This document shows, piece by piece, positions 4,881 through 18,222 of a stretch of 18,222 nucleotides of DNA. The notes under the pieces were generated by a model. That model did no database searches, was not told where the DNA came from, and worked only from the letters and a program-made list of their open reading frames with translations. Both the position numbers and the translations under genes were made by a program. The first letter of the stretch is position 1. Each line of letters starts with the position of its first letter. The stretch covers positions 1 through 18,222 of the forward strand of contig PIXT01000043.1 of the NCBI GenBank assembly GCA_003096235.1, given 5' to 3'. This stretch comes from Candidatus Bathyarchaeum sp. Its GTDB lineage: Archaea; Thermoproteota; Bathyarchaeia; Bathyarchaeales; Bathyarchaeaceae.

Positions 4881-6323
4881 ATGAAAAGAAAGGAAGGATA
4901 TATTGTGGGCACCAAAGATGCGGGGGAAGGAATTCCACTACCACTGTTGACTGAAAAATGGTTCAGCCAACGGTTTCCAGAAATGGAAAAAATCCAAGTC
5001 GTTGACGGAGCAGGCGAAGAATGGAATAGACGAAAACTCAATTCCGTCATAGTTGTTGCATTCCACGCAGACTTGGAAGTAGCACAACTAAAACACTTTC
5101 TACCGCTATTCCTTGTCGAGGAACTCATAGACAGCGGATATTCAATCAGCCCAGTTGTGTACATTGGAGCGCTACGAGACATTGGCAGAGGTTACCATCG
5201 AGGAGACATAAGAGAGCGTGTTGCAGAAGCGCACAAATTTTTCCAAGGAATCTTTGCTCCAAGCGCAAAAGCTGTGATTGTAGAAGACCGAGTGGAAATA
5301 CAAAGAGATGTGTACAGCATCTTAAGAATTCTTGATTTCGAAAAGAGCCTCCAGAATATTCTCAGCCAAATAAACAGCCATGAGAAGCTGCGTGAAGCAA
5401 CTACAGTTAATCTCACAGAAAAAACGTATACGCTACTGGAATACGAAAAAGAGCTGCTGGAGATATACCTTTTTGACAGAAACAAACTAGGAACAGAAAT
5501 CAAAACGTATCCATATGTCAGTTGGGGGTTAGAGTCCCTTAGTTATTTAGGAACATCATACAACATTTTTGACAAATCAAATGCAGGACTTTCAATTCTC
5601 AAGAAGTTAATCTGTTTAGACCATGGTATCGAATATCCTGCAACCATTGTGTTACCGGATCCAGTCACGATTTCAGGAAAACCTATGAGGTATTTGCAAT
5701 CAAGAGACTTGAACCCAGATGAAACACTGTTCATAAGTGACTCTTACAGGGATGTTAGCCGCAAAATTTACGAACAGGAAAAAGTGTCTCCCAAATTTCT
5801 TGATTATCTGGTAAGGAACATTATTCAGCCATTTGCTCCAGCAACCAAAAAGAGGGGAGAGGAACCATGCTGGAAAGATCTTGTAACAAAAAAGCATTTG
5901 GATAGTGAAACGGCTCCCCGTGAGTTGAAGCGGCTCTTTTTGAGGTGCTACTGGGATTTCATAAAGCCATACTATGAAGGCATGGAGACGATTCTTGGAA
6001 CTCATGAGAGCTTGTTTGTTCCAGAGGAATTGACTGAGAAAACATTGGATGCTTTAGGTTCTAAACGTAATAGGCAAATTCTCATGGAGTTAGCGGCTCA
6101 TTACAAAAAACACTCTGCCCCCATGACTGTAAGTGAATTGTTTGAAAAAATGGGTTTGAAGAAGGGAGCCAAGAAAGGTCTTTGGAGAAATTTGGAGACT
6201 CTTGTAAGGTGCGGTTTGGTGGATCGGATTCCTGAGGGCAGGAAACTTCACAAGTATAGCATATATGGGAACAAAACAACGATCAGGATAAGGTTGCCTC
6301 TTAGCAAGAAACGTCAACGATAA
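4881..6323 (+). CDS. Degenerate class I aaRS-like domain fused to a winged helix (480 aa)
   Basis: Not a family I recognise by name. Residues about 50-300 follow the order of a TyrRS/TrpRS-type class I tRNA synthetase core. DLEVAQLKHFLPLFLVEEL (64-82) sits where GxIHIGHL plus its helix would be. Next comes PVVYIGALRDI, then ICLDHGIEYPATIVLPDP. SGKPMRYLQSRDL (265-277) sits where KMSKS would be, and LFISDSYRDVSRKI resembles the post-KMSKS helix. The catalytic motifs appear lost: EVAQ for HIGH and KPMRY for KMSKS. Residues about 393-465 look like a winged helix-turn-helix (RNRQILMELAAHY, VSELFEKMGLKKG, LWRNLETLVRCGLVDRI, a wing, KYSIYG). The tail is basic. This suggests a ligand- or RNA-sensing regulator rather than a synthetase. 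The aaRS relation is inferred from motif order only; the winged helix is firmer. ATG 4881 is the first good start. Confidence 0.6.
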   Translation: MKRKEGYIVGTKDAGEGIPLPLLTEKWFSQRFPEMEKIQVVDGAGEEWNRRKLNSVIVVAFHADLEVAQLKHFLPLFLVEELIDSGYSISPVVYIGALRDIGRGYHRGDIRERVAEAHKFFQGIFAPSAKAVIVEDRVEIQRDVYSILRILDFEKSLQNILSQINSHEKLREATTVNLTEKTYTLLEYEKELLEIYLFDRNKLGTEIKTYPYVSWGLESLSYLGTSYNIFDKSNAGLSILKKLICLDHGIEYPATIVLPDPVTISGKPMRYLQSRDLNPDETLFISDSYRDVSRKIYEQEKVSPKFLDYLVRNIIQPFAPATKKRGEEPCWKDLVTKKHLDSETAPRELKRLFLRCYWDFIKPYYEGMETILGTHESLFVPEELTEKTLDALGSKRNRQILMELAAHYKKHSAPMTVSELFEKMGLKKGAKKGLWRNLETLVRCGLVDRIPEGRKLHKYSIYGNKTTIRIRLPLSKKRQR

Positions 6324-7071: not shown

Positions 7072-7102
7072 CCACTCTCAGTTAGAGAGAGTCTGGTTTT
7101 TG
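7072..7102 (+). terminator. Hairpin terminator between convergent genes
   Basis: ACTCTC and GAGAGT (around 7073-7091) form a short stem followed on the plus strand by TTTTTGTTTCTTCTTC. It serves the four-cysteine gene and overlaps the last codons of the minus-strand surface protein. Confidence 0.5.
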
Positions 7103-8422
7103 TTTCTTCTTCATCATAAAGAATATTACAACCACAATCACAACTGCAGCAACCACTAGAATGTAAATTAAGTTCGAATCGAAACCGCCGTTTGTGCTGT
7201 TTTGTTTAGCTATCAAATTGTTGTTTGTTACGGTGATGGTTCCACCTGAAGATTCGACGAACTCTTGCCCATCTGGACCCACAGAAGCTAGAACTGAACT
7301 GTCAACGTTTTCTATGAATGGGACATTAAATTTGATACTGCCATCATCGCCAATGTAAACGACAATTCTTGCATTGCTAGAGGTGGTTTTAATAAACCAA
7401 TCGTTTGCATCCAGTTCTCCGTTGTTCATCAAAGTCAATGAGTCGCTACACTCAAAATTGACACTAGAGAACCTCATATAATCCCAGTTTGTTATGCTGG
7501 CACTTCCAGAGCCAGAAAGGTCAACTGATTCAAAAAACATTGGACCACTACTAGACAAAATCGTTGTCGCGTTAACTGATGACATTGAAACGGTACAGTC
7601 AGTGACATAAACTTCACCAGTGTTTAAGCAGTTAATTGTTCCACCATTGTTAACTATCGAGCATGAGTCCAATGTGCTGTTTCCAATTAGAAAGTTTATT
7701 TCACTTTTCCGTCCATGAGATGCACCTGAAATATCCATGTTGCATTCAGTCATGGTCAGGGTTCCAGTTAGAGTGTTCAAGTTAACTTTGCCGCCGTAGT
7801 TAACATCAAACACGCCATGAGCGAGCTGAAGGTCACTGCTACTAAAGATTTCAATTTTTCCTTCTGCGCCGTTTGCAACAAAAGTGCATTCAGACAGGTC
7901 AGCAGTGCCATAGTTTGTGATTAATGTGCCATCAAACTGGTCTTTGAAATATCCGTTGTGTATAGTCAAGGAGCCGACGTTCTGTATGTAGGCGTAACCG
8001 CCAATAACGTCGAATGATGTTTCAGTCATACTGCAATCGACTGTGTTGCCGATGTTCAATGTAGAATCACCGACCACAGTGAAATGGCTCGTCTGGACTG
8101 TTAGGGTTCCCCTATTTTGTATGGTAAAATTAGCGTGATTACACCTGATTGAAGTGCTCTTTATGGTTAACTCGCCGAAGTTTATGATTTCAAAATTAAT
8201 CAGTGAATCATCTGTTCCATTGACAGATAGTGTACCTTCGATAACAGCTGTTTCTCCCGAATTCACAGCGAACACACTATCAGAACTGATGAGCACAGAT
8301 TCTCCAGAAGTAGGTAAATCATCCAACGTTAACACTGACTCTGTTGAGTAGCCAACTTGGCAAAATGCAACCAAAGACAACACAACAAGCAACACTAAAC
8401 ATAAACTCGTACTTTTACGCAT
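7082..8422 (-). CDS. Secreted beta-helix surface protein with C-terminal membrane anchor
   Basis: Exported cell-surface protein of unknown role. The N-terminus is a signal peptide (MRKSTSLCLVLLVVLSLVAF, cleavage probably near YSTES). The body of about 390 residues is made of short repeating beta-strand turns, such as GELTIKSTSIRCN, GTLTVQTSHFTVV, GSLTIHNGYF, GTADLSECTF and GTLTMTECNM. This is the pattern of a right-handed parallel beta-helix, rich in Ser, Thr, Asn and Gly. A membrane helix (LIYILVVAAVVIVVVIFFMM) and a KKKQK cytosolic anchor end the protein. The cysteines within the rungs recur and may stack or form disulfides. ATG 8422 is chosen over GTG 8425 because an AAGGAGA Shine-Dalgarno site lies 8 bases before it. 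Adhesion or cell-wall roles are possible but not shown. Confidence 0.8.
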   Translation of the reverse strand: MRKSTSLCLVLLVVLSLVAFCQVGYSTESVLTLDDLPTSGESVLISSDSVFAVNSGETAVIEGTLSVNGTDDSLINFEIINFGELTIKSTSIRCNHANFTIQNRGTLTVQTSHFTVVGDSTLNIGNTVDCSMTETSFDVIGGYAYIQNVGSLTIHNGYFKDQFDGTLITNYGTADLSECTFVANGAEGKIEIFSSSDLQLAHGVFDVNYGGKVNLNTLTGTLTMTECNMDISGASHGRKSEINFLIGNSTLDSCSIVNNGGTINCLNTGEVYVTDCTVSMSSVNATTILSSSGPMFFESVDLSGSGSASITNWDYMRFSSVNFECSDSLTLMNNGELDANDWFIKTTSSNARIVVYIGDDGSIKFNVPFIENVDSSVLASVGPDGQEFVESSGGTITVTNNNLIAKQNSTNGGFDSNLIYILVVAAVVIVVVIFFMMKKKQKPDSL

Positions 8423-8636
8423 CACATTTTTCTCCTTTTCGAAAACCGTGTGTAACTATTTATGAATTTAAGATTTCTTTTGGAATATAAGCGCTGTGAT
8501 ACAAAAACGTCATGCAACCATACGTCTAAACATGTTAGCACAGTTTCCGAGGAGTACAGACCACAATTTTTTGAGCTTTTAGATAGGTTTAAGAGTTGTG
8601 AATAACGAATTTTTAGTACAAACAGAGGTTTTTAAC

Positions 8637-9209: not shown

Positions 9210-9239
9210 ACTATTTCCGGATAAATGGAGGTGAAAAAT

Positions 9240-9356
9240 GTGACAGAAGAAGGACAAGTATACCTTTGCGAGATATGCGGAAACAAAGTAAAAGTAATCG
9301 AATCTGGTGCTGGAACTTTAGTTTGTTGCGGACAAGACATGACTCTTGTAGAATAG
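9240..9356 (+). CDS. dsr: Desulforedoxin, stand-alone (38 aa)
   Basis: Small redox protein with one Fe(SCys)4 centre per chain. The 38 residues match Desulfovibrio desulforedoxin and the N-terminal domain of desulfoferrodoxin: GQVYLCEICGNKVKVIESG, then GTLVCCGQDM. The ligands are Cys10, Cys13, Cys29 and Cys30; adjacent cysteines are the desulforedoxin hallmark. The stop after Glu38 shows there is no C-terminal superoxide-reductase domain. GTG 9240 is chosen because a near-perfect GGAGGTGA lies 5 bases before it; the nearby ATG at 9238 reads ATG-TGA and cannot serve. It is 30 bases behind rubrerythrin, and a hairpin terminator follows 8 bases after the stop, so the two form an operon. Confidence 0.92.
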   Translation: MTEEGQVYLCEICGNKVKVIESGAGTLVCCGQDMTLVE

Positions 9357-9364
9357 ACCTGCTT

Positions 9365-9397
9365 GCTGGAAGATGACTCCAGCTTCTTTCTTTTTGT
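9365..9397 (+). terminator. Intrinsic-type terminator of the rubrerythrin operon
   Basis: GCTGGA (9365-9370) and TCCAGC (9378-9383) form a perfect 6-bp stem with a 7-base loop, followed at once by TTCTTTCTTTTTG. The form and position are convincing. Confidence 0.75.
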
Positions 9398-9436
9398 TAA
9401 AAAATCAGCGTAATTTAGATTCACTGACAGTTACGC
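9398..9436 (-). terminator. Hairpin terminator of the 61-aa minus-strand gene
   Basis: GCGTAA (9408-9413) and TTACGC (9431-9436) can pair. Read on the minus strand the stem is followed by TGATTTTTTAAC. It lies 23 bases past the stop at 9459 and abuts the plus-strand terminator of the rubrerythrin operon, insulating the two units. Confidence 0.55.
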
Positions 9437-9758: not shown

Positions 9759-12700
9759 TTAGTTCACGAGAGTGTATGCCATCTTTGCGTTTTTGTCAAG
9801 TTTTGGGATTGTAATTGTGAATTGTGCCCCTTTTCCAGGCATGCCCGTTTCTTGGATTGTCCAGCCGTATGCAGCACACATTTTTCGTATCAGGTAGAGC
9901 CCGTATCCTGTGCCTTTGCCATAGCCTTCCTTGAAGATTTTTTCTTTTTCATCTTCAGGTATGCCGACTCCGTTATCCTCATAAACCAACTTGAGATGAC
10001 CGCTACCTTCTTTGAAGTATACTTTGATTTGGCTAACATGTCCGCCATGCTTCAGCGAGTCATCAATCAAATTATAGAAAAATTGCCTCAGCAACGAATC
10101 AGCCAACACCTTCAAACCAGAACAGCCATTTACAAGATGTATTGCATCCATTCCTGAAAACAACGAGGCTGCTTCGTCAACACAACGTTTAACGTCAACG
10201 TAAGTTAAATCTTCAGCGCCCAGCATCTCATAGATTCTTGCGAACGAAAAAAGGTTCTCAATCTGGTCAACAGCTGAGCTTATGGCATCAAAATAGTTTA
10301 CAATTCCATTGTTGTTGGCTAGCTGCTGTTTAGCCAGATAAACGTTGTTTACTATGATTGATAACTTGTTTCGAGCATCATGTCGCGTTAACTTGCCAAC
10401 AACATCCAATTTCTCATTAATCAGCACAAGCTCATTCATTGTCTTATCTAGCAAATCCGAGGCTGCTTTGAAGGCAGTTATGTTTCTTCCGTAAATGTTC
10501 ACGTAGTCTGCTTCAGGAATTGGTGCAACAACAAACGAGAATGTTTGGTCACCACACTCAACTTCAACATCTTCAATGCATCCAGAACGAAGACTGCTAA
10601 CAACCGAGTTCATGATTACCTCGGGTACACCCTCTTTATGGTTACATCCATACTTCTGGGCGATTGCGTTGGAATAAAGAATTGTACCGTCTTTGGCTAT
10701 ACGCAAAACAGGGTTAGGGTTTTCAGATGGAAATTTAGCCAAATCGTGGATTGTTTTTTCAGCTTTCTTTTGCTCTGTTATGTCTCGTGTGATAACATGG
10801 AAAAATTGTTTCCCATCCATCACAATCACATGCACTGTGTTGAGTATGTCTCGGATTTCACCTCTTTTTGTACGATGCTTGGTTTCAAACAAATCTTTTC
10901 CTGATTTCAGGATCTGTTGCATCCGCGCTATTGTTTCATCACGAGTTTCTACAACTTCATAATCAAAAACAGTTAGTTTCTCAAACTCTTCTCTTGAATA
11001 ACCCAGTTGACGATGAGCTTGGTCGTTAAACTCAACTGCAATTCCATTAGAGTCAACAATCAAAATACCCAACGGGGCTTTATCAAAAAGCGCACGATAC
11101 CGCTGTTCAGCATCTTGAAGCCTACTCTCCATTTGTTTTCGCTCATTTACACACACAGAAAGCTCAGAAACTGCAACTATCTCCCCATTTTTGTCTTTAA
11201 TTGGATTAGCAATAAGCTGTACCCATGTAAGTTGACCACCAGAAACAGAAACTAATTGTTCACTTACAACATGCTCTTTTCCGGTTTCAAAAATTTCTTT
11301 AGCTCCACAACCAGAACAAACACTAGCACGGTCACGATACACAGAATAACAAGTCTTACCAGTTACATCTCCACAAGATTTTCTAAAAAACTTGTTTGCC
11401 CACAAAATCTTGTAATCTTTGGAGATAATCGTTAGCCCAGCACCAATATTAGCCGTGAAAAGCTCAAGCATTTCGTGCTCCTGACGTAGTGCATCCTCTG
11501 CTCTCTTGCGTTCTGTGACATCTCTTAGGGTACCTTGTATACCCACAAAATGTCCATTTGAATCTCGCAGTAATTTAGGCTTAAATTCACCCCAAGCCTT
11601 GGAACCGTCTTTACATACGTATTCGTAACGTCTGAACGGAAGTTCAACATCAGGATTTTTTTCAGCAGCAAAAAGTGCCTCCTTGAAATCTGCTAGACCA
11701 GACTCAAAAGATTCTTCGGTCATCAAAAATTTAGGTCCTAATTTCATAACTTCTTCAGGAGTGTACCCAGACAAAACCTCAACAGAAGGACTCACGTATT
11801 TTACGTTTAAATCCAAATCCTGAATGAACGTAACATCAGTATTGTTTTCTTCCAACAAACGATGCCTCTTCTCGCTTTCCTTGAGTTGTTGCTCTGTTCT
11901 TTTGCGTTCCAGACTACTTCCAATAAGTTCTGAAACAATCTGAAGAAGAGCAACATCATCGGAACTCCAAGCTCCAAGTCGTTCCACATTATCAAAGCCA
12001 ATAAATCCAGCAAGCTCTCCAGACACAGTTAGGGGCAAGACTATGACCGATTTTATGTCTTGATTTTCCAGAATTTCCTTCTCAGCTTTTGCCTCTGGAG
12101 ACATCAATGAAACATCTTTTACGTGGATTATATTACCATCACGGAGTTGCTTCATCCACCAAGGTATCACCTCAACGGGCAAGTTCTGGAGGCGTTCAAT
12201 TTGAGGAGTTACACCTTTTGCACACCATTCATACGTGTTGTCCAGTGCAGTCTCGTTTTTCTGTAAAAGAAAGATGTACACACGACTAGCATCGCTTATT
12301 TGTCCCATTTCTGCAAGGGACGAATTAATAGCCTCATCAAAGTCAACGGGATTCACAAATCGCGAAGATATACGCACAATAACTGACTCAAACTCAACCT
12401 TATACTTCAAGCGTTCTTCGGCTTGTCTATTTTGTAGAGCATTGAAGATATAATGTGAAAGTTGAGAATAGACAGTTTCAGGATTACCGACTTTATTGAT
12501 GTAATAATCTGCACCAAAATTCAGTGCTTTAATCGCTACTTCTTCTCTGCCTTTTCCGGTGAATAAAATAAACGGAATATTACTACCAGTTTCCCGAAGT
12601 TCTTTCAAAAAAGTTAAACCATCTTTTCCAGGCATCTGATAATCAGAAACAATAACGTCAAACTCTGTTTCCCCAAGTTTTTGGGTAGCTTCCGTAACAG

Positions 12701-13179: not shown

Positions 13180-13395
13180 ATGAACAAAATTGTAGGCATC
13201 ACAATACTGGTTTTAGTGTGTGCAAGCATGTTTTGTGGAATTGTAACAGCCGACAATAGTGCGGGACCAGCACCAAATTCAGGCGATGGAAATCCAGACG
13301 GCAGCGGATTCGAATCAGATCACTGGCAAAATGAAGACAGCCCTGGACCAGCACCCAATTCTGGTGATGGCGAACCAGACGGCAGCGGGTTTTGA
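13180..13395 (+). CDS. Secreted small peptide with two Gly-Asp-Pro-rich repeats (71 aa)
   Basis: Unrecognised exported peptide. Residues 1-24 form a clear signal peptide (MNKIVGITILVLVCASMFCG, then IVTA before ADN). The mature part of about 47 residues contains two near-identical 16-residue units, GPAPNSGDGNPDGSGF and GPAPNSGDGEPDGSGF, joined by a polar linker (ESDHWQNEDSP). The second ends exactly at the C-terminus. The Asp/Gly/Asn-rich turns could bind Ca2+, but there is no exact EF-hand or RTX motif. GGAGG lies 7 bases before ATG 13180 and a TATA-like TTAAATTAAA about 30 bases before it, so expression is likely. The cysteines lie in the signal peptide; Cys19 followed by GIV does not form a clear lipobox. 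No membrane anchor follows. Confidence 0.75.
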   Translation: MNKIVGITILVLVCASMFCGIVTADNSAGPAPNSGDGNPDGSGFESDHWQNEDSPGPAPNSGDGEPDGSGF

Positions 13396-14485: not shown

Positions 14486-14901
14486 AATAATGGCAGAACT
14501 ATTAACACATCATTTTAACTTAAAAACATTGGCAAAACATGATCATGTCAGGAAACTGAAAAGAAGTTTGCTGAAAACAGTTTACGTATTTTGTTTTCTT
14601 TTTTGGAGTTTATTTCAGCTCAATAATAACTACGTGAATGAACAGTTAACAGGTTTTGCAAACATGAGTAAAAAAAGTTTTACTTGCAGGAAAAATAAAC
14701 AGGGCACTTGATCTGAACAAGGAATATAGAGTCTACAATACTTTTTGCCTTTAGGTCAATGTCACAGATGTCGCACACAAAAACGCTTTATATCAACAAG
14801 CAATAAAGACGTACACTACTAAACAACTGCGAAACAAAAGAATGATCGAATTAAACAATCTCTTAGAAGCTTAAGCTCAATATGTCAAAAACGAAAGAAA
14901 A
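14486..14901. other. Intergenic region between tRNA and propeller gene
   Basis: About 415 bases with no supported gene. A 73-codon plus-strand frame starts at 14490 but has no ribosome site and an unconvincing composition. CGCTTTATATC at about 14783-14793 is a good TATA box on the plus strand; only a 10-codon frame follows (ATG 14842). The right edge (14888-14901) is the A-rich strand of the U-run that ends the structured element next to it. Confidence 0.4.
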
Positions 14902-15010
14902 GGGTTTGCTGAGGCTTTTGCACGGACAATAGAGGAAGAAAAAATGAACAAAACTCTGCTACAATCGCTTTGATCATTTTAGTTTTCCGCGCGTGAGCCT
15001 TTTCAGCCCC
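14888..15010 (-). ncRNA. Structured 3'UTR element / terminator, copy 1
   Basis: Read on the minus strand after the propeller gene stop: GGG, GCTGA, GGCT and GCGCGG pair in order with CCGTGC, AGCC, TCAGC and CCC. An inner stem AAAATGA-x-CAAA pairs with TTTG-x-TCATTTT around the loop GCGATTGTAGCAGAGT. The outer stem is followed by TTTTCTTTCGTTTTTG. The same helices occur in copy 2 (17965-18078), including one G-U versus A-U change, which supports the fold. It may be the terminator, a stabilising 3' structure, or the source of a small RNA. Confidence 0.6.
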
Positions 15011-15031
15011 TTGTTCTTTCAAGGTTTTTGT

Positions 15032-15051
15032 CTCCCTACAAAAAAAGGGAG
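15032..15051 (-). terminator. Hairpin just after the propeller gene stop, copy 1
   Basis: CTCCC (15032-15036) and GGGAG (15047-15051) flank a T-rich loop on the minus strand, 18 bases after the stop. The equivalent at 18098-18117 keeps the stem with a slightly different loop, so the hairpin is conserved along with the larger element beyond it. Confidence 0.45.
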
Positions 15052-15068
15052 CAAGGGAAATTGTTTTG

Positions 15069-17654
15069 TTATTTTCGTTTTCGTAGTGCCCAGAATGCTG
15101 CTACGCCTATTACGCATGCTACTGCGACTGTTGCGATTATTGCCAATTCTGTAGAGATCAGTGGTGCTTCTGTTGCTGGTGTTTCCGTGTCTGGAGTTTC
15201 AGTGTCAGGAGTTTCTGTATCAGGGGTCTCGGTGTCAGCTGTCTGTGTATCTGGGGTTTCAGTGTCAGGCTCTATTGGAGTTGATGCTGAAGCTGCGGGG
15301 TCTACTGTCATGTAAGTTGTTGATGTGGAACCATAGTATGCCTTGGAGCCTTCAAAGGTAGCGATTATCGTGTATGTACCTTCAACTTCAGGCTCAAACG
15401 CGAAACCGTAGTTGCCATAAGAATCACTTGTGGTTGTACCAAGATTCTGGTAGTTACCGTTAGGGTCTATTGCTTCTAATTTCACTGTAACTCCTGTTGC
15501 GTCTGCTGGGCGCTCAAACTGCATATACACATATTCCATCCACTTGCTCATGTCATCATCAGCTACTACTGGAACACCATTTGGGAAACGCAATGTCAAA
15601 TCGGTAGCATCTGTGCCTGGAGAAACATCCAGTACTGTGCCTTCTATTAGTACGCTGTTTCCTTGTACTGCAACTTTTGGTGAAGCTGTCACTGTGGTTG
15701 CGCTTGGTCCTTTACCTATAGCGTATACCTGCTGGTCGTACGAGTTCGCTACCACTGCTACGCTGTCTCCGATAACTGCGCTTGCTGAGTAGTAAAAGTA
15801 CATACTCATTGACCATACTTCTTTTCCAGTTTCTACATCAATGCAGATAATTGGTCCACCACGTGGTTTAGGATCAACAGGAGAGTGCTCACCATGGATC
15901 AAGTAGATTTTTCCGTCAGCAATGAAATTGATGAACATAGGCCAGTTGTTACTCCACAAGATTTCATTTAAGGGGTCTCTTACTTCGTATTCCCACAATG
16001 GGTCGCCTGTTTGCAGATCGTAGCAGTTTACTATTCCGTCATAGAAACATGTAAAGAGCCTACCGTAAGCGATACCAGCTGAAACTCCATATGCAGCCAA
16101 GTAGTGCTCAGGAGCGGTTGGACCCCAAAGGTAATCACCGGTTTCAAGGCTAAAGCCATACCATTGCATAGTCTCTTTTACCCACACTGTTCCGACGCCC
16201 TCTAGTAAGCTCATGCCTCTGCCCCAAGATACTGTTAAGTTGCCGTCAGCCCATTCAGAAGGCGCATCCCAAACTTCGTCGTATAACAATGTTCCTTCGT
16301 GTCCTGGCTCCAAACTGAACGCCCATAGCTTGACTGCGTCTGTGGTTACACTTGCGCCGACAACTTTTTCATTTACAACAAATCCAGTGACGCTTCCTGC
16401 TAATTCTGTTGGTATAGTTTTGTTCCACTCGATGCCACGTGCAGCGTCAAGTGTTACACCCACAGCTTTAGAACCCCAACTTCCATGATCTGAAACAACT
16501 CTACTTGAGTTCCACAAAGTCATCCAGCCATTGTTGACGTTAACCGTGGCTATGTAAATCTCACCTTTTGGACCAAAAGCAGTTGTGCCACTAGGAACGT
16601 TTGTCATACTATATTCCCAGCGTCCAGTAAAGGCATCATATGCATTCCAAGTACTGCCAGTTTTTGTCCATAAGTATGCGAAAACTCCGTGATAGTTATA
16701 GGAGTCAAAATAGAACAGTTGACCAAATGATAGTCTAGTGTTGTTCCAGTTTCTTGTCCAGAGTTCTTCACCAGTATGTAAATCAACAGCAACAACTACC
16801 TGCTCGGCATTAGTGCCTCCGTTTGCTTCGTATTGATTGTAGTAAAGTACTCCGTTGAGAACTACCGAGTCAGCAAATTTTGCTTCATATGCAGCTCCAC
16901 ATTCAATTGCATGGTTACCCATCGATCCTCCAGCGAGACCTCCCGTTGCTATTGGCTTTGTCCATAATATATGACCTGTCTCGGGTGCATTATCATTGTA
17001 AGGAGCGAACTTTGAATCTCCTGACACTACGTTGACCTGACCACCAGGTCCGCCACCCAACCAGTTTCCTGCAATTGTCGACCATTCTCTAAACTGTGCG
17101 TTTATTGGACGCGTCCAGTATTCGCTTGGAAGCGGTTGCGGTGTGTAGTAATCTATGGGCTCCGGCAATATTTCAAGTTCGAGTACTTTGCTTTCACTGG
17201 CTAAATATGTTACATCATAAGGGTCTCCTGCACGTGGAATCATGGTTATTGTTTGTTCAGGGAAGTGTGTCTGCAAATGATATGTGCCAGCCATCGTTGG
17301 CGTGAATAATTGCCCTGTTCCACCTGTTGAATCGGTTTGGATATCATTTATAGAGCTTTCTTTGCCTTCAGGATCTATAATTGATACTGATAGATCTTCA
17401 TAGCCCATGTTTACATTTGACAGAGCTTCTGTAATCCCGACATGTAATAATACGCCTTGACCAACGCCTGATGGGTTAGGTACACATCCAAGGAAAGCAT
17501 ATGTCTGTTTAGTAGATGTTTGTGCGGTAGCAGCGGGTAATGTGATTAGTAACACAGATAGTGTTAGTAATATAACGAAGGTTATAGCGAATGTTTTTGA
17601 GTTCATTCTTAGAATTTTTGTTTTACATATATCGAAATTTTTAGTCATTTTCAT
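15069..17654 (-). CDS. Surface-anchored PQQ-type beta-propeller protein
   Basis: Exported protein of 861 residues, probably displayed on the cell surface. It starts with a signal peptide (KTFAITFVILLTLSVLLITL, then PAATAQ). An N-terminal beta-sandwich follows at about 50-155. A PQQ-like propeller (about 180-660) has blade motifs such as VVAVDLHTGEELWTR, YDLQTGDPLWEYE, CIDVETGKEVWSMSM and DSVAVVANSYDQQVYAIGKG. An Ig-like domain at about 670-795 (SPKVAVQGNSVLIEGTV, GTYTIIATFEG) comes next. A low-complexity linker of DTETP units leads to a membrane helix (LAIIATVAVACVIGVAAFWA) and an RKRK anchor. The propeller may be a binding scaffold; PQQ use is not implied. ATG 17654 is chosen because AAAGGA lies 5 bases upstream; Met17 lacks a ribosome site. 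A paralogue lies upstream on the same strand. Confidence 0.85.
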   Translation of the reverse strand: MKMTKNFDICKTKILRMNSKTFAITFVILLTLSVLLITLPAATAQTSTKQTYAFLGCVPNPSGVGQGVLLHVGITEALSNVNMGYEDLSVSIIDPEGKESSINDIQTDSTGGTGQLFTPTMAGTYHLQTHFPEQTITMIPRAGDPYDVTYLASESKVLELEILPEPIDYYTPQPLPSEYWTRPINAQFREWSTIAGNWLGGGPGGQVNVVSGDSKFAPYNDNAPETGHILWTKPIATGGLAGGSMGNHAIECGAAYEAKFADSVVLNGVLYYNQYEANGGTNAEQVVVAVDLHTGEELWTRNWNNTRLSFGQLFYFDSYNYHGVFAYLWTKTGSTWNAYDAFTGRWEYSMTNVPSGTTAFGPKGEIYIATVNVNNGWMTLWNSSRVVSDHGSWGSKAVGVTLDAARGIEWNKTIPTELAGSVTGFVVNEKVVGASVTTDAVKLWAFSLEPGHEGTLLYDEVWDAPSEWADGNLTVSWGRGMSLLEGVGTVWVKETMQWYGFSLETGDYLWGPTAPEHYLAAYGVSAGIAYGRLFTCFYDGIVNCYDLQTGDPLWEYEVRDPLNEILWSNNWPMFINFIADGKIYLIHGEHSPVDPKPRGGPIICIDVETGKEVWSMSMYFYYSASAVIGDSVAVVANSYDQQVYAIGKGPSATTVTASPKVAVQGNSVLIEGTVLDVSPGTDATDLTLRFPNGVPVVADDDMSKWMEYVYMQFERPADATGVTVKLEAIDPNGNYQNLGTTTSDSYGNYGFAFEPEVEGTYTIIATFEGSKAYYGSTSTTYMTVDPAASASTPIEPDTETPDTQTADTETPDTETPDTETPDTETPATEAPLISTELAIIATVAVACVIGVAAFWALRKRK
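15178..15267. repeat. Six 15-base tandem units encoding the DTETP linker
   Basis: The units run 15178-15192, 15193-15207, 15208-15222, 15223-15237, 15238-15252 and 15253-15267, each about GGNGTTTCNGTGTCN on the plus strand. On the coding strand they read Asp-Thr-Glu-Thr-Pro, with one unit giving Asp-Thr-Gln-Thr-Ala. This is a Pro/Thr/acidic spacer between the Ig-like domain and the membrane anchor. Confidence 0.85.
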
Positions 17655-17964
17655 TTTTTTCCTTTTTCATTTTTTTAGAGATGAGTATCGAAAAGATTCG
17701 ATTCTCCACCTATGAAAAGCAGAAGTATCCAAATTCAAACTTAACAGTTTGTAGCTAGGACAGCCAACCACAAAAAACAAGTATAATATAACTCATTGAA
17801 AAACAAAAGAAAATATAAGATAATACACTATGGAAACTAAAGACTAAGAGCTACAAACCCTAAAAAATAGGACGTACCTACAGGCAATCACAGATTTTTT
17901 GGCTCTTGTTCAATTGCATAAACATGAAAGAAAAACTTAGAATATTATCAAGACAACAAAAGTG
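17655..17964. other. Promoter/leader region of the propeller gene
   Basis: 310 bases without a gene. The minus strand carries AAAGGA just before the start, and TATA-like elements TTATATTATA (about 17783-17793) and TTATATTTTC (about 17810-17819). These would imply a leader of 100 or more bases. Two small inverted repeats lie between: ATCGAA-AAGA-TTCGAT (17687-17702) and AAACT-TAAC-AGTTT (17737-17750). Confidence 0.4.
17687..17702. promoter_or_regulatory. Inverted repeat in the leader of the propeller gene
   Basis: ATCGAA, a 4-base spacer and TTCGAT form a perfect 6-bp inverted repeat 33-48 bases before the start codon. It could be an operator or a leader hairpin. Only the symmetry supports it. 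Confidence 0.25.
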
Positions 17965-18078
17965 AAAAAAGGGTTTGCTGAGGCTCTTGCACGGCAACTT
18001 AGAGGAAAAAAATGAACAAATCTCTGCTACACTATCGCTTTGGTCATTTTCATTCCGTGCTAGAGCCTTTTCAGCCCC
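17965..18078 (-). ncRNA. Structured 3'UTR element / terminator, copy 2
   Basis: Minus-strand helices GGG/CCC, GCTGA/TCAGC, GGCTC/GAGCC and GCACGG/CCGTGC, plus an inner stem AAAATGA-x-CAAA/TTTG-x-TCATTTT around GCGATAGTGTAGCAGAGA, then a TTTTTT run at 17965-17970. It follows the stop of the second propeller-family gene exactly as copy 1 follows the first. The stems are more complete here (5- and 6-bp Watson-Crick). Confidence 0.6.
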
Positions 18079-18097
18079 TTCTTCTTTTGATGTTTGT

Positions 18098-18118
18098 CTC
18101 CCACAAAAAAAGGGGAGA
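18098..18118 (-). terminator. Hairpin just after the paralogue stop, copy 2
   Basis: CTCCC (18098-18102) pairs with GGGAG (18113-18117) across a T-rich loop on the minus strand, 17 bases after the stop. It matches the hairpin at 15032-15051. Confidence 0.45.
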
Positions 18119-18134: not shown

Positions 18135-18222
18135 TTATTTTCGTTTTAGCAGTGCAAAATATGCTGCTACGCCGATAACGCAAGCTACTGCGACTGCTGC
18201 GATGATGGCTACTTCTGTAGAA
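18135..18222 (-). CDS. C-terminus of a paralogous surface protein (cut by window edge)
   Basis: Only the last 29 codons are visible. They read STEVAIIAAVAVACVIGVAA, then YFALLKRK and TAA, nearly the same membrane anchor as the full-length propeller protein (STELAIIATVAVACVIGVAA, then FWALRKRK). The gene continues past the right edge on the minus strand. It lies upstream of the complete propeller gene and shares its 3' non-coding region, so it is the other half of a tandem duplication. The domain content before the anchor cannot be seen. Confidence 0.85.
   Translation of the reverse strand, partial: STEVAIIAAVAVACVIGVAAYFALLKRK

Follow-up and report, generated by a model that had tools for sequence, protein, structure and literature searches.

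A covarying 3' element of PQQ-propeller genes in Bathyarchaeia carries a strand complementary to the ribosome-binding sites of the same gene family

The subject of this study is a structured element that follows each of two tandem minus-strand genes (gene 1 and gene 2) in an 18,222-nt stretch of contig PIXT01000043.1 of Candidatus Bathyarchaeum sp., referred to below as the window. It is near certain that the element exists and folds: it is a genuine structured RNA, present in multiple copies in Bathyarchaeia, unmatched in Rfam and tied to a single family of surface proteins, those with PQQ propellers. What is new is a match between one of its strands, a pyrimidine-rich linker, and the ribosome-binding sites (RBSs) of that family, which suggests that these messages may control their own or each other's translation.

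Fold and covariation of the element

An earlier note on this DNA had described two copies (14902–15010 and 17971–18078) with a common chain of helices and one pair that is G-U in copy 1 and A-U in copy 2. The arms were found at those positions on the minus (sense) strand, sequence and folding gave the same helices in both copies, and the differing pair was confirmed (GCGCGG/CCGUGC in copy 1, GCACGG/CCGUGC in copy 2). Four minus-strand folds had minimum free energies of −38 to −44 kcal/mol and z scores of −3.8 to −4.5, with none of 200 dinucleotide shuffles as stable, while two plus-strand folds had z scores of −1.8 (12 of 200 such shuffles as stable) and −2.5 (3 as stable). Both copies adjoin a stretch that is 81% identical over 129 nt and holds the C-terminal coding ends of both genes, so that the window alone could not tell duplication from conservation; this doubt was removed by homologues in other genomes.

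Thirty-six copies, one per genome (the window counting as one), were aligned with MAFFT without fitting to any model, and from this alignment RNAalifold derived a rod of 18 pairs, 14 of them showing two-sided changes. In the named 17-pair structure pairing holds in 92.0% of cells (83.3% in shuffles), 13 of the 17 pairs show two-sided change, and such change occurs in 57 cells compared with 16.6 in shuffles. The covariation score was 0.308 against 0.155 for shuffles (0 of 500 as high) and 0.039–0.129 for slides; pair 19–127, which is GC in 16 copies, AU in 13, GU in 6 and other in 1, serves as an example. The shuffles leave relatedness in, and the covariation is to be taken as strong support and not as a formal probability. 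Larger fitted alignments agree on the structure but lean to the model. The outer three-helix rod is held by covariation.

From the outside inwards the rod consists of P1 (GGG/CCC), an AAA bulge on the 3' side, P2 (GCUG/CAGC), a 3-nt bulge on the 5' side and P3, a variable helix of about 9 bp (GGCUCUGG/CCAGAGCC). Inside P3 lies a lineage-specific inner stem (P4), followed by the pyrimidine linker before the 3' arm of P3. Three of the four pairs of P2 are invariant in the 36 copies, and the AAA bulge is 96–97% conserved in 118 copies. The AAAAUGA/UCAUUUU inner stem that had been included in the original chain is present in both window copies but elsewhere is limited to some lineages, only the three outer helices being general. 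Comparison of G-U with A-C in the unfitted alignment (25 versus 20, p = 0.55) does not settle the strand; the corresponding counts in fitted alignments were 174 versus 135 and 130 versus 104. Kink-turn, selenocysteine insertion sequence (SECIS) and attC readings were judged by eye and discarded; the orientation, together with the spacing downstream of a single gene family, argues, again by eye, against integron attC sites or REP-type (repetitive extragenic palindromic) mobile hairpins.

Distribution and position in Bathyarchaeia

With gene 1 as query against genome contigs six loci were obtained, all from Bathyarchaeota; the element is present in the 3' flanks of four of these (L001, L002, L003 and L006) and absent from those of L004 and L005, whose genomes carry copies elsewhere. 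A covariance model, R1, built from seven copies gave 11, 19, 24, 46, 7 and 12 matches (E 0.1 or better) in six whole genomes, one of the 24 being the antisense of another match. Of 250 genomes sampled from the class, 41 were positive at E 0.001; with scoring limited to 13 candidates in each genome, the counts are lower bounds. Model R2 matched 22 of 398 genomes from the phylum, with eight candidates per genome scored: 20 of the 41 class positives, G077, which is a class-sample genome additional to the 41, and G467, the sole match outside the class sample and a weak one (27.2 bits, E 8e-4). As the phylum sample adds just this one weak match, the element looks confined to Bathyarchaeia, within the sensitivity of the samples scored. 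A search of the whole window against Rfam 15 (cmscan, E up to 5) gave no match on the element, its three matches lying in a tRNA-Pro region (two) and at 9232–9409 (one), and there was no match to the element in the plasmid collection searched. Several copies are no more than about 40 nt from a contig end (G004 C17:428290-428407, C26:342308-342425 and C25:41-147; G003 C8:35-164), as expected of repeats that break assemblies.

Across six whole genomes and the window, 74 of 102 matches lie 27–68 nt after an open reading frame (ORF) of more than 600 amino acids (108 R1 matches were cut to 102 by removing antisense and overlap duplicates by hand), and the C-termini of the preceding ORFs, where printed, show a Pro/Thr-rich stalk, a transmembrane segment and a basic end. 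Some of the remaining 28 are at contig or locus edges, some lie beside PQQ genes or decayed PQQ ends (L079, L104, L057 and L046) and about a dozen stand alone. Of the 99 elements in five genomes (95 from R1 and four found by R2 only; one gene fragment was left out as belonging to its neighbour), 75 are 3' of a PQQ homologue. Conversely, an element was detected at 75 of 123 PQQ loci (G001, 8/10; G002, 14/15; G004, 39/53; G005, 7/15; G006, 7/30, the last including many contig-end fragments), and further genomes contributed 39 genes with an element 31–87 nt past the stop codon. The element is positioned after PQQ-propeller surface-protein genes. The earlier note's reading of a conserved structured 3' untranslated region (3'UTR) element, exceeding an archaeal terminator in size, is thus supported by relatives in many Bathyarchaeia genomes, by their placement and by covariation. 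At one locus, L061, a copy (about 12423–12538, minus strand) directly follows an apparent PQQ gene start and signal peptide, suggestive of loss of the remaining gene or of insertion of the element.

Complementarity of the linker to ribosome-binding sites

The linker reads UCUCCU, CCUUC or UUCCUC depending on lineage, often with UUCAU before it, and together with the strand preceding it forms the complement of the PQQ-gene RBS, that is an anti-Shine-Dalgarno (anti-SD) sequence and an anti-AUG at matching spacing. The SD sequences of PQQ genes vary by lineage as the linkers do. Thus GAAGG is found upstream of 10/14 PQQ and 8/60 non-PQQ genes in G002, AGGAGA of 7/7 and 4/38 in G001, and GGAGA of 28/33 and 26/110 in G004, 5/6 and 7/21 in G006 and 2/6 and 1/17 in G005, the regions being placed by the signal peptide for PQQ genes and by the longest ORF start for the others. 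In four of these five genomes predicted duplexes of the linkers with PQQ start regions are stronger than those with non-PQQ start regions. The linker also resembles the anti-SD tail of 16S ribosomal RNA, whose end was found in six of eight genomes searched (GGATCACCTCCTAAG in five, GGATCACCTCCTATG in one).

Because composition explains part of the pairing, shuffles, reversed linkers, non-PQQ genes and held-out genes were used as controls. The first gene set comprised 112 genes from 28 sources, the window counting as one of the 28 'genomes'; it was obtained from 169 rows by dropping 57 that had no full ORF of more than 600 amino acids within 130 nt upstream, lay at a contig or locus edge, had no signal-peptide core or were antisense. 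Linker duplexes with the 5' regions averaged −17.35 kcal/mol within and −15.64 kcal/mol between genomes, with an interaction of −1.65 (p = 0.0001). Control strands gave no within-genome signal (reversed linker, p = 0.30; post-stop spacer, p = 0.53; 5' part of P4, p = 0.66). Of the 112 linkers 86 have a CAU upstream of the anti-SD, compared with 21 in shuffles; in 65 of the 86 its distance is 6–10 nt, similar to that from SD to AUG. Pairing takes in both SD and start codon in 56 of 112, compared with 17–32 in shuffles. For the 60 of the 112 genes covered by a ranking along the mRNA, a gene's own RBS was the best of about 105 windows in 32%, compared with 3% with shuffled linkers.

A held-out set of 66 new genes (86 rows minus 20) was drawn from seven genomes, all of which had already given other genes to the discovery set. 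CAU is present in 36 of these 66 linkers and at 5–11 nt in 26, compared with 3.4 in shuffles; SD and start codon are both paired in 25 (7–12 in shuffles), and the linkers prefer the RBS to other parts of the mRNA (p = 7e-4, median rank 10.5% versus 21.3%), a preference weaker than in the first set. In statistical terms, the pyrimidine linker presented by the rod is largely unpaired and antisense to the SD sequence and start codon of the gene family.

Partners in cis and in trans

Within the window, a 14-base run of copy 2 is a perfect complement of the RBS and start of gene 1; chance would give 0.07 sites with up to one mismatch. The predicted duplex of copy 2 with this RBS is −16.1 kcal/mol (short linker); that of copy 1 with the same RBS, its own, is −11.4 kcal/mol with a 28-nt linker and −15.3 kcal/mol with a 34-nt linker.

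Eighteen element-less PQQ genes of three genomes were compared with 48 element-bearing ones. In G004 the predicted pairing is −19.9 for element-less (n = 7), −18.9 for element-bearing (n = 35) and −16.8 for non-PQQ genes, and in G006 the values are −19.2 (n = 7), −18.4 (n = 6) and −15.0, respectively. Shared descent of the 5' flanks could also explain the equal pairing of element-less paralogues. When orphan (stand-alone) copies were ranked by pairing with the family, three of five in G002 were 2nd, 2nd and 4th of 15, and the three in G006 were 3rd, 3rd and 5th of 7. The orphans of G002 include those at C1:2127971-2128097, 2045120-2045240 and 416451-416583. These ranks and the pairing of element-less paralogues favour action in trans without proving it. 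A tendency of linkers to pair less well with their own gene than with paralogues (p = 0.0003, 104 genes from 20 sources) was not upheld at the same settings in the 66 held-out genes (p = 0.13); the discovery set enters into the combined p of 0.0016, and self-avoidance is not claimed.

On the plus strand of the window an ORF at 13180–13395 encodes a 71-amino-acid secreted protein with two repeats of about 24 amino acids and no Pfam match. Its RBS and first codons are the best predicted partner of both window elements on either strand outside the elements themselves (−25.5 and −24.3), and homologues of the protein were found in 11 of 28 Bathyarchaeia genomes searched. It was rejected as a conserved target after comparison of eight homologues, for which the means (−11.4 to −18.6) were near or below the PQQ start-site values. 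In G002, G003 and G131 a homologue and an orphan element share a strand and are about 2.3 kb apart (in G002, C1:2125467-2125670 and 2127971-2128097, respectively).

Features of the window

The coordinates of the two genes and of the parts of the element are given in Table 1. The product of gene 1 matches PF13360 (E 2e-13, Pfam search); gene 2 is cut off by the end of the window, its coding end lying within the 81%-identical repeat. At both genes a short U-tract hairpin, separate from the element, sits between stop codon and element. Most of the PQQ genes read, element-less ones included, keep a C-rich U-tract shortly past the stop codon. Elsewhere in the window, large ORFs at 7082–8425 (minus) and 4881–6323 (plus) have no Pfam match at E 0.001; the product of the former looks secreted, with a C-terminal transmembrane segment.

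Table 1. Genes, element copies and parts of the element in the window
Feature	Position	Strand	Basis or description
Gene 1	15069..17654	minus	861 amino acids, signal peptide, PQQ propeller, C-terminal transmembrane segment, RKRK end (ORF list)
Gene 1 RBS and start (AGGAAAAAAAUGAA)	17650..17663	minus	
Gene 2, C-terminal end only	18135..18222	minus	Stop codon 18135–18137; read from sequence
Element copy 1, 3' of gene 1	14890..15018	minus	R1 106.9 bits, R2 98.3 bits
Element copy 2, 3' of gene 2	17959..18086	minus	R1 122.4 bits, R2 111.6 bits
Copy 1, 5' arms of P1–P3 (GGGGCUGAAAAGGCUCACGCGCGG)	14987..15010	minus	Folding; pairing class backed by covariation in unfitted alignment
Copy 1, 3' arms of P1–P3 with conserved AAA bulge (CCGUGCAAAAGCCUCAGCAAACCC)	14902..14925	minus	Folding and covariation
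Copy 2, 5' arms of P1–P3	18055..18078	minus	Folding
Copy 2, 3' arms of P1–P3	17971..17994	minus	Folding
Copy 1, anti-start and anti-SD strand (UUCAUUUUUUCUUCCUC)	14932..14948	minus	Predicted duplex with gene 1 RBS
Copy 2, anti-start and anti-SD strand (UUCAUUUUUUUCCUC)	18002..18016	minus	Exact 14-base complement of gene 1 RBS
Copy 1, 5' side of inner stem P4 (AAAAUGAUCAAA), start-region-like	14969..14980	minus	Folding
Copy 2, 5' side of inner stem P4 (AAAAUGACCAAA)	18039..18050	minus	Folding
Post-stop U-tract hairpin between gene 1 and element (CUCCCUUUUUUUGUAGGGAG)	15032..15051	minus	Likely terminator
Post-stop U-tract hairpin between gene 2 and element	18098..18117	minus	

Discussion

The explanation that we favour, and to which we would give an even chance, is control of translation by pairing between 3'UTR and RBS, in cis or in trans. 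It is more specific than the functions that the earlier note had put forward as possibilities (mRNA stability, protein binding or a small RNA). The element would be transcribed and its anti-RBS strand would pair with the ribosome-binding sites of family mRNAs. Because the anti-SD core is mostly unpaired within the element (0.78 on average) and the CAU mostly paired (0.34 unpaired), a toehold followed by strand exchange is suggested, in which the anti-SD makes the first contact and the inner stem opens to reach the AUG. Loading of the 30S subunit would then be blocked and translation of the paralogous surface proteins would become coupled. Pairing might occur in cis, in trans or both; the existence of stand-alone copies and of element-less targets makes some action in trans plausible, and mutual control among paralogues is possible. 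A more elaborate scheme, in which each PQQ-propeller mRNA carries an antisense copy of the family RBS and transcripts in excess silence the paralogues with the help of stand-alone small RNA copies, goes further and we consider it unlikely.

Several results weigh against translational control. The first concern the lineage signal: the p-value of the lineage test rises to 0.007 without the lineage of G002, G003, G050 and the window, and to 0.09 when G184, G004 and G178 are left out as well, so that the signal rests on a limited number of lineage shifts. In G005 the linkers hardly favour PQQ over non-PQQ genes, and no difference in pairing was seen there among element-less, element-bearing and non-PQQ genes. 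Pairing of an element with its own gene is no stronger than with paralogues. By energy the gene 1 RBS comes no higher than third among the minus-strand sites of the window for copy 2 and falls outside the best six for copy 1, and the other two orphan copies of G002 rank 10th and 15th of 15. The duplex energies ignored the accessibility of the target, and the CAU, being mostly paired, may be kept for the inner stem alone. No element was detected at 48 of the 123 PQQ loci, some of which are contig-end fragments. Finally, a C/U tract precedes the element and transcription may stop before reaching it; as this tract lies before the element and also after most element-less genes, read-through would be needed for the element to be transcribed.

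A tentative alternative is that the element binds a protein, which recognizes the rod and its bulges (AAA; GCUG/CAGC) and stabilizes or localizes surface-protein mRNAs, a logic comparable to that of the shared 3'UTR motif of trypanosome surface-antigen mRNAs. The concentration of sequence conservation in P2 and the AAA bulge and the restriction of the element to one gene family are what would be expected of such a site, but protein binding by itself leaves both the match of linker to RBS and the free-standing copies unexplained. We think it distinctly unlikely that the element is a structure for transcription termination or 3'-end processing. It does lie soon after the stop codon, with T-rich tracts downstream of both window copies, but a C/U tract is already present between stop codon and element and is found also after most of the 18 element-less paralogues read, many copies have no clean T-run at their end, and a terminator needs no invariant P2, bulges or linker match. 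Still less probable is an element acting as DNA, whether a mobile or recombination site or a gene-conversion tract, that folds when single-stranded: the many copies per genome, the occurrence of some at contig ends or beside decayed genes or a truncated gene start, and the G-U to A-C asymmetry, which leaves the strand unsettled, would fit it, but orientation is fixed, spacing after the one gene family is 27–68 nt, and copies that diverge strongly in sequence keep their pairing. Chance alone is contradicted by the covariation, and recent duplication, in the source genome, of a gene together with its 3' flank, to which the 81%-identical stretch beside the window copies might point and which the earlier note had named as the sole cause of likeness that would undo its reading, can be set aside almost entirely given compensated stems in copies from 36 sampled genomes or sources and the 41 positives among 250 class genomes.

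Bathyarchaeia are reported to hold expanded PQQ families, with 46 PQQ-domain genes in one closed genome (PMC11697101), and the element offers a concrete genome-wide handle on the choice among many PQQ genes. Translational control by the linker could be tested in Bathyarchaeum tardum M17C-01, for which a complete chromosome and a cultivated enrichment are described (PMC10477458), since its type genome (G002) holds 19 matches to the element. If pairing fails, what is left is an RNA family that covaries, has no match in Rfam and occurs many times per genome in a widespread class of archaea. If pairing works, this would be to our knowledge the first 3' element linking translation across a whole archaeal family of paralogous surface proteins.

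Comparison with known systems

Of the paper titles listed by searches of the open-licence PubMed Central (PMC) literature none dealt with the element, which does not prove its absence in print. The 16-mer of trypanosome variant surface glycoprotein mRNAs is likewise one 3'UTR motif common to a large family of surface proteins, but it is a short linear motif in a eukaryote, and we know of no antisense match to start sites for it. Among archaeal RNAs, sRNA162 of Methanosarcina mazei has both cis- and trans-encoded mRNA targets but is a single small RNA, and the opening of the abstract describes no family-wide 3' element (PMC3510493).

The nearest mechanisms that we found in the literature are those of the streptococcal csRNAs (cia-dependent small RNAs) and of icaR. 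The csRNAs are multi-copy related RNAs with an unpaired region complementary to SD and start codon, and CAU is reported in 53 of 61 of them (PMC3091779). They are, however, free-standing bacterial small RNAs of different structure with CiaR-controlled promoters (PMC3091779), whereas the element lies mostly 3' of the protein genes that it would target, in archaeal hosts (CiaR was not searched for). In Staphylococcus aureus an anti-SD motif in the icaR 3'UTR, UCCCCUG, pairs with the SD region and blocks formation of the initiation complex (PMC3868564). A 3'UTR motif complementary to the SD of the same gene or family was found here also, more weakly in some lineages, and action in cis or in trans is left open in both cases. 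The icaR mechanism concerns one bacterial gene, has been shown experimentally and involves RNase III (PMC3868564), whereas the element described here, known from sequence alone, is a covarying rod that serves as 3' flank to a whole archaeal paralogous family and carries an anti-AUG in addition to its anti-SD.

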